Shown piece by piece: positions 48,374-54,879 of a DNA stretch of 64,000 bases; the stretch's first letter is position 1, and the number at the start of each line of letters is the position of its first letter. The stretch spans positions 1-64,000 of the forward strand of contig JAOZIH010000005.1 of assembly GCA_026014545.1 (NCBI GenBank). The letters are read 5' to 3'. This DNA is from Candidatus Bathyarchaeota archaeon (GTDB lineage Archaea; Thermoproteota; Bathyarchaeia; Bathyarchaeales; Bathycorpusculaceae). Both the position numbers and the translations under genes were made by a program. The notes beneath the pieces were generated by a model that did not search any database, was not told where the DNA came from, and worked only from the letters and a program-made list of their open reading frames with translations.

Positions 48374-48715
48374 ATGTCAGACAAGCTTGCCGAGTACCTT
48401 ACAAACTATATTCAGGAAAGAATTGGCGTATACAAAAAATACATTATAGCTGCCTTCAACAGCAAAGACCACTGTATCTGGTATCTAGAAAGTAGTGCAG
48501 GTATGCCTGTGCCTTCATCTGACCTGAAAAACTGTGAGCTCCTAAGAGACGCTAAAATCTTCACAGAAGACACGCGCATATCGCGAAATGGTCGTAACAT
48601 CTACAAAGTTTTCTGCTTAACAGAATTCGGCAAGCAACTTGCAAAAGCAATTATGAAAGAGAACCAGATGCCTGAAATCGAAGAACTTGTTACTGATGAA
48701 GCAGCCAAAAAATAG
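48374..48715 (+). CDS. Small hypothetical protein, possibly winged-helix
   Basis: The 113-aa protein has helices at both ends and a centre with NCELLRDAKIFTEDTRISRN, then GRNIYKVFCLTEFGKQLAKA, a helix-turn-strand pattern like the recognition helix, wing and closing helix of winged-helix regulators. It could be a one-domain transcription factor, but the similarity is weak. ATG start; the gene follows tRNA-Pro by about 70 bases. The gap 48716-48994 upstream of hppA shows only an A/T-rich promoter-like region. Confidence 0.65.
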   Translation: MSDKLAEYLTNYIQERIGVYKKYIIAAFNSKDHCIWYLESSAGMPVPSSDLKNCELLRDAKIFTEDTRISRNGRNIYKVFCLTEFGKQLAKAIMKENQMPEIEELVTDEAAKK

Positions 48716-48994: not shown

Positions 48995-51900
48995 ATGGCT
49001 AATGTGCTATCCCCCTTGGAATATGGAGCACTATATGCAGTTGTAGGCATCGCGATAGTAGCGCTCGCTTATGCCTTCTTTCTTCGAAGGCGAATACTTA
49101 AGGAACCCACCGCAACTGGCCGCGTAAAAGAAGTCTGGGAAGGCATACGCGCCGGAGCAAATGCATACTTGCGCGTTCAATTCAAATCCATGCTGCTGCT
49201 GATAGGCTTCTTGGCAATCTTCCTTTACTTTTCCGCCTCGCTTGACAATAGCCCACTATTTGTAGCAATCGGGCGTGTCGGCGCCTTCCTCATGGGCACC
49301 TTCTTCTCTGCTATGGTCGGCTACATCGGTATGAACATGGCTGTCCAAGGCAGCATACGGGTCGCTGAGGCTTCAAAGAAGGGATTCCGTGAAGCGCTCA
49401 AAGTTGCATACCGCACAGGCACAATAACCGGCATGCTCACTGACGGCTTAGGTTTGCTCGGCGGCGTAGCTATCTTCCTCATATACGTTGACCATTCCCC
49501 TGAAGTGCTATTGGGCTTCGGCTTTGGCGGAACACTATTGGCGCTTTTCATGCGTGTCGGCGGCGGCATCTACACAAAAGCCGCTGACGTAGGCGCCGAC
49601 CTCGTAGGCAAAGTTGAACGCGGCGTCCCAGAAGACGACCCGAGAAACGCTGCGGTGGTCGCTGACCTCGTAGGCGATAACGTAGGCGACTGCGCAGGTA
49701 TGGCCGCAGACATCTTCGAATCCTACGAAGTAACCATGGTTTCAGCGCTCATACTTGGTTTAGCCATCGCTACCCAAGGACCAATTTTTGAGGCAAAATG
49801 GATTGTTTTCCCCATTCTCGTACGTGGCATCGGTGTAATCAGCACACTCATCGGCACTTACATGGTGGCTAAATGGCCTGACAAGCTAACGAAAGGCGAC
49901 GCATTCAAAGCCATGGATCTATCCTACGACCTATCAAGCGCCATTTCTGCGGCAAGCTTTCTTGTTCTATCAATCTTCTATGTGAATGACATACGCGTGT
50001 TCCTCGCAACCACCGTAGGCATAATCCTTGCAATAAGCTTCAATAAACTTGCAGACCACTTTACCAGCCCAAGCAGAAACCCCGTTGACGGCGTAGCAAA
50101 ATCAAGCAAGACAGGACCAGCAACTGTAATTTTGCAGGGTCTCGCACTAGGCTTCGAAAGCACCGTTTGGACAATATTTCTCGTCGCATTAACCATAGTC
50201 ATCTCTATGCTAATCTGGTCTGGCGCCGGCTTCCTGTTCGCATCTTATGGCATAGCTTTGGCGGGCATAGGTATGCTAACGCAGACAGGAAACAACGTTG
50301 CCATGGACACTTTCGGACCAATCGTGGATAATGCGAATGGCATAGGCGAAATGGCTGGCCTACAGGGCAACTCAAGGAAGATCCTCGCAGACTTGGATGC
50401 CTCAGGAAACACAACAAAGTCTGTGACGAAAGCCATCGCCATTGCTTCAGCCGTTGTAGCCGCAATCTCGCTGTTCTCATCTTTCACAGAAACTGTGCAT
50501 GTGAGCCTAGACATCGCGGCTGACCCGCTGGTCTTCGTCGGTCTACTAATAGGCGGCGCGCTACCATTCCTGTTCAGTTTCATATCCATAAGAGCCGTAG
50601 GCAGAGCAGCGGGCAAAATCATCGAAGAAGTACGAAAGCAATTCCGCATACCTGGCGTAATGGAAGGCACCAAGCTGCCTGACTACGCCAAAGTCGTAGG
50701 CATATGCACAGCTGCAGCGCAAAGAGAACTTGCAAGCATAGCTATCATCGCAATACTAACGCCTCTAGCCGTAGGCCTAATACTTAGCCCATCAGCATGG
50801 GGCGGTTTCCTTGCAGGAGTAATCCTGACAGGCCAGCTACTTGCCGTTTTCATGGCGAACTCCGGCGGAGCTTGGGATAACGCTAAGAAAAAGATTGAAG
50901 ACGGCTACTATGGCGGCAAAGGTTCAGAAAGCCACAAAGCCTCAGTCATTGGCGACACCGTCGGCGATCCCTTGAAGGATACAGCTGGTCCCGCGCTAAA
51001 CCCAATGATTAAAGTCATAAACCTTGTATCTCTCCTCTTTGCGGCTTCGATACTTGCGTTGAAGAACAGTTTCCTTGTTCAAGTGCCCATACTTAACGTG
51101 GAAATTCCAGTTGCAGCAACAGCGCTTGCCGTCGTTCTAATCGTATTGATAGGCGTAGCAATCGTTTACAGTAAGCGGGAAACAAAAGAGGAGGAGCAAG
51201 TTCGAGATATAGACGCGCCAATATTCGAAAATGTCATTGTTAATCCAAATCCTGTGGCGGCTAATACCCTTTTCACATTAAGCGGTGTTCTTGATGACTC
51301 AAGGACAGGTGGCTCGCGGATCGTTTCAGCAGAATATAGCTTTGATGGCGCTTTATGGTTCCCGATGGCTGCTGAAGATGGTCAGTTGGACACGCAGCTT
51401 GAGCGGTTAGCCGCGAAAACCCTGATTGAAAAACCGGGTATATACCCGCTCATAGTGCGTGGCGCAGATGAAATGGGTAATGTAACTGCACAGGAATGCG
51501 GGGTAATCATTGTTTACGACCCAAATGTAGGTTCAGCAATCGGCGAGGGCTGGATTGAGTCTCCTGAGGGCGCGTACACAGAAAAGCCGCAAGCCAAAGG
51601 CAAAGCTACCTTCCAATTCACCGTCGGATACCAAAAAGATACAGGTGCCCCCGTGGGTCAGGCTGAATTTGTATTTCCAGCAGCCGAATTAACTTTCAGA
51701 AGCGAACGGCTCGAATGGCTAGTAATCACCGAGGACAAAATCCACTTAACGGGAACAGGTTTGCTTAATGGTGCAAAAGAATGTGCCTTCGCGCTAATTG
51801 CAATACCCGCTAAAACCGCAGAAATCAAACCGGCCAAATTCCGACTGACCCTATGGGAAAAACCGACAGGCAAAGTGCTCTACGACAGCGACTTAGGTAA

Positions 51901-52024
51901 TCCTGATAGCGCTTACCCAATAACGAAAGTTGCTGGCGGAAACATAACCATTGAATCAAAAACGCAGACAACTGGCAAAAAGAAATCCCGCAAAGCAAAT
52001 AGTGCCAACCAAAATACAAGTTAA
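48995..52024 (+). CDS. hppA: K+-independent proton-pumping membrane pyrophosphatase with a long C-terminal extracytoplasmic-type extension
   Basis: The first 725 residues are a complete membrane pyrophosphatase with about 16 transmembrane helices. Catalytic loops are DVGADLVGKVE (about 196-206), PEDDPRN and ADLVGDNVGDC, and late GDTVGDPLKDTAGPALN. The motif GNTTKSVTKA (about 470) has Lys and Thr at the two positions that mark K+-independent H+-pumps. Unlike known members (about 680-770 aa) it then continues for about 275 residues: an Ig-like module (about 740-835, VIVNPNPVAANTLFTLSGVL) and a beta module (about 845-985) reminiscent of post-COAP-1 domains (GEGWIESPEGAY, then GTGLLNGAKECAFALIAI). 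The ATG has GAGGT upstream. Confidence 0.93.
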   Translation: MANVLSPLEYGALYAVVGIAIVALAYAFFLRRRILKEPTATGRVKEVWEGIRAGANAYLRVQFKSMLLLIGFLAIFLYFSASLDNSPLFVAIGRVGAFLMGTFFSAMVGYIGMNMAVQGSIRVAEASKKGFREALKVAYRTGTITGMLTDGLGLLGGVAIFLIYVDHSPEVLLGFGFGGTLLALFMRVGGGIYTKAADVGADLVGKVERGVPEDDPRNAAVVADLVGDNVGDCAGMAADIFESYEVTMVSALILGLAIATQGPIFEAKWIVFPILVRGIGVISTLIGTYMVAKWPDKLTKGDAFKAMDLSYDLSSAISAASFLVLSIFYVNDIRVFLATTVGIILAISFNKLADHFTSPSRNPVDGVAKSSKTGPATVILQGLALGFESTVWTIFLVALTIVISMLIWSGAGFLFASYGIALAGIGMLTQTGNNVAMDTFGPIVDNANGIGEMAGLQGNSRKILADLDASGNTTKSVTKAIAIASAVVAAISLFSSFTETVHVSLDIAADPLVFVGLLIGGALPFLFSFISIRAVGRAAGKIIEEVRKQFRIPGVMEGTKLPDYAKVVGICTAAAQRELASIAIIAILTPLAVGLILSPSAWGGFLAGVILTGQLLAVFMANSGGAWDNAKKKIEDGYYGGKGSESHKASVIGDTVGDPLKDTAGPALNPMIKVINLVSLLFAASILALKNSFLVQVPILNVEIPVAATALAVVLIVLIGVAIVYSKRETKEEEQVRDIDAPIFENVIVNPNPVAANTLFTLSGVLDDSRTGGSRIVSAEYSFDGALWFPMAAEDGQLDTQLERLAAKTLIEKPGIYPLIVRGADEMGNVTAQECGVIIVYDPNVGSAIGEGWIESPEGAYTEKPQAKGKATFQFTVGYQKDTGAPVGQAEFVFPAAELTFRSERLEWLVITEDKIHLTGTGLLNGAKECAFALIAIPAKTAEIKPAKFRLTLWEKPTGKVLYDSDLGNPDSAYPITKVAGGNITIESKTQTTGKKKSRKANSANQNTS

Positions 52025-52161: not shown

Positions 52162-54141
52162 TTACAATAGAAGTGTCAATATTCGAAATGCAATTCCACC
52201 TAAGAGTATCGCGAATATTATTTCAAACAATGTTATAGTCAGCGCTTTTTTCCAGCCGAACTCCTTGACCAGCGCCGCTATGGTTGCTATACACGGTATA
52301 TAGAACATTGCTACTAAAGTGAAAACAACCATCTGCATTGGCGTCAGCGCTTCGGCGAAGTTAGTTGTTCCTAGAAGCGTTGCCAGCATCACTAGTGCTA
52401 GCTCTTTGCGCAGTATACCAAATATCAGCGTTATCCCTGTGATAGCTGGCAAGCCTATCCAAGCTACCGTTATAGGGCTGAGCGCTGCGGCTATGGGCTC
52501 TAGCAATCCTGCAACTTCAGCAAGCTTCAACGCAAAGCTACCTGCAATTATTAGTGGAAAGGCTATCTTTATGAATTCAGCCACTCTGAACCAGGTCTGC
52601 TTTAGGATAGTTTTCATGTGCGGCCAGCGGTAGTCATGCATCTCCATGATTAGCGCCGTCGGCTCTCCAGGAACGACTTTGAACGCCAATCGTCCCAGCA
52701 GGAAGATTATTAGGAAGTTGAAGAGATAGAGTGCCAGCGCCCAGTGAATGCCTAGAAAGTTGCCTACAAGCCCCAGTATGATTACGGTGGTTGCAGCGCA
52801 TGGCACAAGAGTCGTGACGAACGCGGCAAGTAGCCTCTCTCGTTGTGTTTCCATTATTCTGCATCCTAAGCAGGCGGGTACATTGCAGCCGAAGCCGAGC
52901 ATGATGGGGATGAAAGCTTTCCCATGCAAACCCATTTTATGCATGATGTTGTCCATTAGGAATGCGATGCGGCTTAGGTATCCTGAGTTCTCGAGAAAGT
53001 AGAGTATGAGATAAAAAGGGATTATGTAGGGCAAGACTATTGTGATGCCTGCGATTAGCCCTTCCATGACGCCGCCCCAAACTAATGCGCCAATAATTCC
53101 CGTTCCGAAAGCGCTGCGCACAAGCGGCTCTAAGCCATAGAGTAAATCACTAAGTACGCTTGAGGTTACGTCTCCAAAGGTAAAGATGCCGTAGAAAACT
53201 AGTACAAGCGAAAAAATCATTGTTAGGTAGCCGGTGATTTTGTGAGTTGTAAAACTATGCACGCGTTCGCCTATGGTGGGCTTTATAGGCGGCACCATTG
53301 TTTGCACTGCTCTTGCTATGCAGCCAGCCGCTTCGTATCTCTCAGAGGTTATCACAGTTGAGCATCCGTGGCCATGGAGCTTCTCAATTTCTGATGCAAG
53401 CTTTTTGGCTGTAGCGACTACTTGCGGTGCAACTCGGTTAATCTCTCTTTCTATATCTTCATCCCCTTCCAGCAGCTTGATAGCCGTGTACCGACGTGGA
53501 TAAATAAGTTCAGCGTCTTTCATCGCATCTATGAGTAGACTTATTTTTTCTTCTATCTCTTCCCCATACCTTATCTCGGCTGGTTTTTTATCTGGTGCCT
53601 TTTCGATTATTTCGATGGCTTTCTCTAGGAGTTTGTCAATGCCTACGCCTTTAACCGCGATTGTTGGCACGACGGGTACTCCCAAAATCTGCTCCATCTT
53701 CTTAATGTCCACATTGATGCCCTTGCTTTTCGCGATGTCCATCTGGTTCAACGCAACTATCATCGGTGTTTCCAGTTCCATAAGCTGTAAAGTGAAGAAG
53801 AGATTTCTCTCGAGCACCGATGCGTCCACAACGTTTATCACAATGTCTGGCTGCTCAACTGCTATGTATTTTCTTGAGACAATCTCCTCCAGCGAATAAG
53901 TGGACAGCGAGTATATTCCCGGCAAATCTACAATGTCTATTGTGTACCCCTTAAACTGAAGCGTTCCTTCTGCCTTTTCAACTGTTTTTCCCGGCCAGTT
54001 ACCTATATGCTGATGCAATCCTGTTAAATGGTTAAAAATCACGGATTTTCCAACATTAGCGTTTCCAGCCAATGCTATCTTAAGGTGCCTTGCTTTCTGG
54101 CTACTACTTTTCTTGTTTAATGGACAAGAGTGGCATGACAT
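52162..54141 (-). CDS. feoB: Ferrous iron transporter FeoB
   Basis: An N-terminal cysteine pair (MSCHSC) precedes the G-domain: GNANVGKS (G1), DLPGIYSLS (G3) and NQMD (G4). Then come a helical GDI-like spacer and the membrane part with the two Gate motifs, the first including GFGCNVPACLGCR. GTP hydrolysis drives or gates Fe2+ import. The ATG at 54141 is chosen over GTG 54150 because AGGTGA is five bases upstream of it. It follows the DtxR-FeoA gene within 15 bases, so both are on one mRNA. No free FeoA gene is present; the FeoA domain sits on the regulator. Confidence 0.96.
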   Translation of the reverse strand: MSCHSCPLNKKSSSQKARHLKIALAGNANVGKSVIFNHLTGLHQHIGNWPGKTVEKAEGTLQFKGYTIDIVDLPGIYSLSTYSLEEIVSRKYIAVEQPDIVINVVDASVLERNLFFTLQLMELETPMIVALNQMDIAKSKGINVDIKKMEQILGVPVVPTIAVKGVGIDKLLEKAIEIIEKAPDKKPAEIRYGEEIEEKISLLIDAMKDAELIYPRRYTAIKLLEGDEDIEREINRVAPQVVATAKKLASEIEKLHGHGCSTVITSERYEAAGCIARAVQTMVPPIKPTIGERVHSFTTHKITGYLTMIFSLVLVFYGIFTFGDVTSSVLSDLLYGLEPLVRSAFGTGIIGALVWGGVMEGLIAGITIVLPYIIPFYLILYFLENSGYLSRIAFLMDNIMHKMGLHGKAFIPIMLGFGCNVPACLGCRIMETQRERLLAAFVTTLVPCAATTVIILGLVGNFLGIHWALALYLFNFLIIFLLGRLAFKVVPGEPTALIMEMHDYRWPHMKTILKQTWFRVAEFIKIAFPLIIAGSFALKLAEVAGLLEPIAAALSPITVAWIGLPAITGITLIFGILRKELALVMLATLLGTTNFAEALTPMQMVVFTLVAMFYIPCIATIAALVKEFGWKKALTITLFEIIFAILLGGIAFRILTLLL

Positions 54142-54153
54142 AAAATTCACCTG

Positions 54154-54879
54154 TTAGTCAGCTACTGGGCTTTCTACTTCTACAAAAATCTTCGAGGCAA
54201 CACCTTTTCCAATGGCAAGTTTTGAATCTCGCACCGCCAGCTCGACGGGCCCTCCAAGCGGCGCAATTCTGACGATGCAGATTCTCGTGCCCGGCGTAAG
54301 CCCCATATCCAAAAGACGCTGAACCATGTTGCGGCCGCCTCTGATGAACGCGATTTTACCGCATTGCCCTTCTTTGAGACTGCTTATGGCAATTAGCCTC
54401 TGATTATGCTTCCCCTCTTCCTCCAAGCCTTTTTCGTGTAGCTGTATGCATTTGGCACAACTTTCTATTTGGAGATTGCAGGGCGGGATCATTTTTCCGT
54501 CGTCTGGGCAGCTGTCAGGATGCCTCAGAAATCTGCACAGCGACTCTTCTGCCTCGTCTGAAAGGGAATGCTCCATTTCGCAAGCTTGACTGTGGACTTT
54601 TTCTTTGTCAATTTTTAAAACATCATGTAAAAAGCGTTCTAGTAAGCGGTGTTTGCGTACTATTTTTTCAGCAATTCGTCGTCCTTCACTTGTTAAGGTT
54701 GTTCCGTGATATGGAGAGTATGTGATGTAGCCTTTGTTGGCGAGTTTTTTCAGCATCTCGGTTACGCTGGCTGGAGCTATCTTTAATGTTTGCGAAATTT
54801 CTGTGGTGCCTACTGCTTTTCCGTTTTGAGACAGTTCATATATTGTTTTTAAGTAGTCTTCACTGCTTTTTTGCGTCAT
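54154..54879 (-). CDS. DtxR/MntR-type metal-dependent repressor with C-terminal FeoA domain
   Basis: The N-terminal winged HTH (residues about 3-65, ISQTLKIAPASVTEMLKKLA) is followed by the metal-binding and dimer domain: HRLLERFLHDVLKID and EMEHSLSDEAEESLCRFL, with His, Glu and Cys ligands. A cysteine cluster CPDDGKMIPPCNLQIESCAK is in the linker. The SH3-like FeoA domain covers about 165-240 (GLTPGTRICIVRIAPLGGPV). Iron-bound protein should repress feoB and itself. Two matching operators lie 12-76 bases upstream of its start. Confidence 0.93.
   Translation of the reverse strand: MTQKSSEDYLKTIYELSQNGKAVGTTEISQTLKIAPASVTEMLKKLANKGYITYSPYHGTTLTSEGRRIAEKIVRKHRLLERFLHDVLKIDKEKVHSQACEMEHSLSDEAEESLCRFLRHPDSCPDDGKMIPPCNLQIESCAKCIQLHEKGLEEEGKHNQRLIAISSLKEGQCGKIAFIRGGRNMVQRLLDMGLTPGTRICIVRIAPLGGPVELAVRDSKLAIGKGVASKIFVEVESPVAD

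Follow-up and report, generated by a model that had tools for sequence, protein, structure and literature searches.

A membrane pyrophosphatase with surface-protein-type C-terminal modules in a Bathyarchaeota archaeon, and their predicted cytosolic location

The locus raises two questions: whether a membrane pyrophosphatase (mPPase) of Candidatus Bathyarchaeota truly continues into two modules of the kind seen in secreted proteins, and on which side of the membrane such modules would lie. To our knowledge, mPPases are normally bare pumps without regulatory domains. The gene is situated in a stretch of 64,000 nucleotides, here called the window, from a draft genome (G000) of 1.86 Mb in 41 contigs. 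The genome further encodes a normal-length mPPase on contig C33 and a soluble pyrophosphatase of family I.

The fused gene, its relatives and its loss

The frame runs uninterrupted from an ATG at 48995 to a stop at 52022-52024 and gives a product of 1,009 aa. Its parts, with the evidence used to delimit them, are as follows.

48995..52024, + strand: fused mPPase gene, 1,009 codons plus stop in an open frame; the fusion occurs also in G071 and G004
48995..51064, + strand: 16-helix mPPase core, residues 1-690, with E242 (6.53), K475 (12.46) and T478 (12.49); Pfam H_PPase, PDB sequence matches, AF2, Foldseek
51110..51175, + strand: extra helix TM17, residues 706-727, then YSKRE; hydropathy, AF2, conservation in the 17-TM subgroup
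51176..51220, + strand: charged linker, residues 728-742; sequence, AF2 short helix 731-739
51221..51496, + strand: PKD/Ig-like module, residues about 743-834; weak PKD match, OmpL47-type match of the G004 copy, exported kin L045-L048
51497..51952, + strand: post-COAP-1-like module, residues about 835-986; alignment to secreted homologues, NF041523 match of the G004 copy
51953..52021, + strand: basic tail, residues 987-1009 (end TGKKKSRKANSANQNTS); sequence, present in G071 and missing from G004

The core is a typical mPPase. H_PPase (PF03030) was matched over residues 21-682 with 769 bits (profile positions 1-645, Pfam cut-off 29.7), and the catalytic loops were invariant in alignment A4. The AF2 model of the core had pLDDT mostly over 90 and reached TM-scores of 0.84-0.89 by target length against solved mPPases in Foldseek. 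The PDB sequence search matched the core to solved 16-helix mPPases, whose chains stop at TM16.

The original prediction described one 1,009-codon frame with two added modules and proposed that the same fusion be sought in other genomes. It was found in a congener, G071 (92% identical over residues 169-1008), and in a member of another genus, G004 (70% identical over residues 3-996). Three species from two genera, with separate assemblies, carry the fusion, and the layout of the junction is alike in all three proteins: KRET.EE, a short linker and NPNPV. The mPPase with a PKD/Ig-like and a diverged post-COAP-1 module behind it is a genuine fusion. That the assembly or annotation had merged two genes, as might be suspected of a draft in 41 contigs, has a negligible probability, since the same junction recurs in three separate genomes, of which the most distant is 70% identical. 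An assembly error joining two genes was ruled out by the same recurrence. A search for a separate orthologous gene coding for a signal peptide of its own found none; in G003 a 92-aa tail piece is all there is.

The history of that piece could be followed by comparison within one genus. Relative to G004, G003 has a clean deletion of 3.16 kb (L035 4242-4517 vs L036 3095-6255), which in one step took away both a winged-helix gene and the pump, together with the first portion of the added part, and left the tail piece adjoining the soluble pyrophosphatase gene. Loss of the pump is evidently possible. In G004 itself, a soluble family I pyrophosphatase gene lies directly 3' of the fused gene (L005 4500-5078). 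In the window, the stretch 52162-54879 (- strand), convergent with the pump gene, holds a FeoB-like iron transporter gene and, upstream of that gene, a DtxR-type regulator, apparently, by eye, with a FeoA-like C-terminal part.

Pumps of the window type are rare. Only seven of the 163 genomes of the order have one, three fused and four unfused, and a comparably similar pump was seen in only 5 of 398 genomes of the phylum sample. The closest named relative, L054 from a Bathyarchaeota MAG, is 66% identical. The four unfused pumps (G060, G061, G016 and G015) are 75-77% identical and stop 19-22 residues past TM17. In the best tree the unfused G060 and G061 are placed beside G000 and G071, so that the fused pumps are not grouped together; a single clade of fused pumps was neither supported nor rejected (p-AU 0.06), and one old fusion followed by losses and a later transfer are both conceivable histories.

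Between G000 and G071, dN/dS was 0.058 in residues 736-1009 (274 codons) and 0.012 in the core. The added part and the core are both under purifying selection, which is strong in the added part, and together with the recurrence of the fusion this value shows that the added part is neither an artefact nor a drifting read-through, the latter being ruled out. We regard a tolerated passenger, a gene end once captured that has no role of its own and is kept as it folds harmlessly, as an unlikely explanation of the added part. The added part is the faster-evolving one (83% identity vs 97% in the core), four close relatives are without it, and G003 lost the entire pump and retains only the broken tail piece, all of which fit a passenger; the low dN/dS over 274 codons and retention in two genera point instead to constraint, of which selection to avoid misfolding could supply a part.

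Identity and origin of the added modules

In the window copy, PKD (PF00801) was matched with 15.3 bits and E 0.02, short of the gathering score of 23.5, and the first module is called only "PKD/Ig-like". The window copy of the added part gave no NCBIfam match. The added part of G004, which is 45% identical to the window copy, matched post_COAP_1 (NF041523) with E 4.7e-8 and 33.5 bits, under the curated cut-off of 40, and an OmpL47-type domain with E 1.8e-6, likewise under the curated cut-off. Since the window copy has no NF041523 match and the G004 copy stays below 40, the second module was labelled "post-COAP-1-like"; it appears to be a diverged relative of post-COAP-1. The names first given from the letters of the DNA, Ig-like and post-COAP-1-like, agree with the PKD, OmpL47-type and NF041523 matches, all of which are below cut-offs.

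Of the searches proposed for the added part, Pfam returned the weak PKD match; queried by itself against PDB sequences, the part returned nothing. A profile of the post-COAP-like module found no significant match in PDB; the profile of the whole part matched PKD and cadherin folds, partly because the secreted rows in it contain PKD repeats. Prediction of the whole protein by AF2 was confident for the core and TM17 and failed for the added part, which had pLDDT about 30 without alignment depth, so its fold is not interpretable.

Secreted homologues align along the entire added part, and four of them, in the archaeal order of the host, have the identical order of modules (L033, L040, L041 and L043; L033 is an 836-aa LamG-PKD-post-COAP protein bearing a signal peptide). 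In these LamG/PKD/OmpL47-repeat proteins a PKD/Ig-like module stands immediately before post-COAP-1, as in the window protein, and identity to the window copy is 31-35% over the whole part and reaches as much as 43% within the post-COAP-1 module. Unlike the window protein, they contain no pump and have a signal peptide and several repeats without membrane helices. The Ig-like module is also akin to modules of the exported archaeal proteins L045-L048, of which L045, L047 and L048 have N-terminal hydrophobic segments. Relatives of the post-COAP-like module were absent from viral contigs and phages, and on plasmids they were found only in choice-of-anchor proteins of Deinococcus and Chlorohelix. 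The added part most likely derives from the captured 3' end of a surface-protein gene.

C-terminal additions to mPPases have, in the literature searched, one published precedent, an OmpA-like domain reported in Paucibacter and other Burkholderiales (PMC11210485). Its type, too, is known from extracytoplasmic proteins, but these enzymes are bacterial and the domain is about 110 aa long and unrelated to the modules of the window protein. No description of a PKD/post-COAP-1 pair on an mPPase was found in the same literature, and this variant appears to be new.

The seventeenth helix and the side of the membrane

The original prediction placed the modules directly behind the last helix, TM16, and thus outside the cell, where they could tether the pump to the S-layer or sense the surroundings. 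This overlooked a helix. By hydropathy the membrane part has 17 segments, and the last of them (706-724) is the highest of the protein (Kyte-Doolittle 3.05). AF2 with 46 sequences modelled residues 706-727 as a helix that follows a short extracytosolic hairpin, with mean pLDDT of 90-96 in the blocks concerned. Every unfused close relative shares TM17 with the fused protein, and the helix is not specific to the fusion; TM17 with a KR-rich motif behind it occurs also in mPPases of Streptomyces, Nocardioides, Armatimonadota, Thorarchaeota and Bathyarchaeota. In a tree the window pump fell into a 17-TM subgroup with Streptomyces-type enzymes, a branch of 24 rows with support 100/99. By every feature tested, the window pump is a member of the 17-TM subgroup of mPPases.

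Mimura et al. in 2004 are said to have mapped the 17-helix topology of the S. coelicolor mPPase experimentally. Actinobacterial 17-TM K+-independent H+-PPases of this type share with the window protein the core, TM17 followed by SKRR or SKRE, K12.46 and the subgroup in the tree, and differ in the tail past TM17, which usually has 10-30 aa, while that of the window protein has 285 aa with two modules. An Acidimicrobiaceae 17-TM mPPase (L068 4001-6394) has an Ala/Pro/Gly-rich tail of at least 78 aa past TM17, compared with the usual 10-30 aa. The 15-16 loop of mPPases bears part of the hydrolytic centre. In solved mPPases this centre faces the cytoplasm (PMC5150537), hence TM16 should run outward and TM17 inward. 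A paper citing Mimura et al. gives mPPases 15-17 helices (PMC9405524), and 17-helix forms were described as occasional in a 2025 paper (PMC12614893). Given the 17-helix subgroup and the OmpA-like domain of Paucibacter, the premise that the mPPase chain stops a few residues from TM16 does not hold generally.

The distribution of charge is in line with this topology. Over the 24 proteins of the subgroup there were 69 K/R in the 12 residues past TM17 vs 18 in the 16-17 loops. As TM17 brings the chain back and K/R follow it, the C-terminus and the modules are strongly predicted, from helix parity and charge, to be cytosolic. The content of KRDE was 23-25% in the fused modules and 17-20% in the secreted homologues; among the proteins of the window, cytosolic ones have 24-30% and surface ones 14-17%. 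This agrees with cytosolic modules as supporting, not decisive, evidence. N-glycosylation sequons gave no clean split of fused and secreted post-COAP proteins, the secreted ones also having few.

An extracellular position of the modules, with the pump anchored to the S-layer or sensing the environment, is accordingly quite improbable. It would suit the fact that PKD/Ig-like and post-COAP-1 modules are elsewhere parts of secreted proteins that carry signal peptides (L033, L043), and the C-terminus of a 16-helix mPPase would indeed be outside; TM17, however, flips the side, and the unfused close relatives all have TM17 with a short charged tail. Parity and charge predict the modules inside, where anchoring to the S-layer or sensing of the outside is hardly to be expected. 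A cytosolic home would be unusual, as both modules have clearly exported relatives.

The pump itself could be classified from its residues. K475, T478 and E242 correspond to K12.46, T12.49 and E6.53. According to the published scheme, which includes E6.53, A12.46K and G/A12.49T accompany K+-independence (PMC10897367). The three residues fit this class and support, at the level of sequence, the call of a K+-independent H+-PPase, which had been made earlier from GNTTK...T. The mPPase of Pyrobaculum aerophilum (PDB 8b37) has the same K+-independent H+-PPase signature, but it has 16 helices and is without C-terminal modules.

A possible cytosolic role and the upstream winged-helix gene

We consider it rather probable that the protein is a 17-helix K+-independent H+-PPase in which the captured end of a surface-protein gene serves as a cytosolic docking or regulatory domain. 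Judged from family and residues, the pump part would export H+ at the expense of cytosolic PPi, which it would hydrolyse, and would do so without K+. TM16 would exit outside and TM17 would return the chain to the cytosol, so that the modules would lie at the cytosolic face of the homodimer, beside the PPi-binding side and near the PPi entrance. There they might act in docking or regulation, for example as a binding site for a cytosolic partner or as a stabiliser of the dimer; this role is suggested weakly, and the search for a docking partner of the modules gave none.

A second component of the locus lies 282 bp upstream of the fused gene.

48374..48715, + strand: winged-helix-like gene of 113 aa; G004 counterpart, proximity to mPPase genes, AF2 resemblance

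A gene 64% identical to it stands directly upstream of the fused mPPase gene of G004. The protein had no Pfam or NCBIfam assignment. Single-sequence AF2 gave a model with mean pLDDT 79, the other four models being much lower, which weakly resembled HxlR/PadR/MarR winged-helix regulators (best E 2.9e-3), and the profile of the family gave a marginal match to AF_1382 in PDB (E 0.013). Homologues were found in 20 of 91 genomes of the taxonomic family, and none were seen outside it in the phylum sample. In 19 of the 20 carriers (loci L036 and L143-L160 among them) an mPPase gene is no more than 3 kb away, the usual distance being about 100 bp; the exception is G013, where no mPPase was detected. 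At 17-TM pumps the gene is co-directional and upstream (G000 and G004; decayed in G016), while with 16-TM pump genes it is convergent. As there are two arrangements and more than one pump subclass, co-inheritance of a single locus is an incomplete explanation. This suggests that the winged-helix family is a putative, unrecognised regulator of the expression of pyrophosphate pumps. In G063 two diverged, mutually convergent winged-helix copies are found (L148 1158-1821), and the mPPase next to them carries GNTMKSICK, an unusual motif.

Only tentatively can the two parts be joined into a wider picture, in which an exported-type pair of modules came to serve regulation or docking at the cytosolic face of the pump, and several pump subclasses are accompanied by a winged-helix family (48374-48715) of dedicated regulators, so that pyrophosphate pumping would be under previously unrecognised control. 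As far as we know, little has been learned about the regulation of pyrophosphate use in prokaryotes. The fused protein would represent a clear case of surface-type modules apparently relocated into the cell interior, and a constrained domain on the cytosolic side together with a pump-linked winged-helix gene would, if true, offer handles on how cells regulate their use of pyrophosphate.
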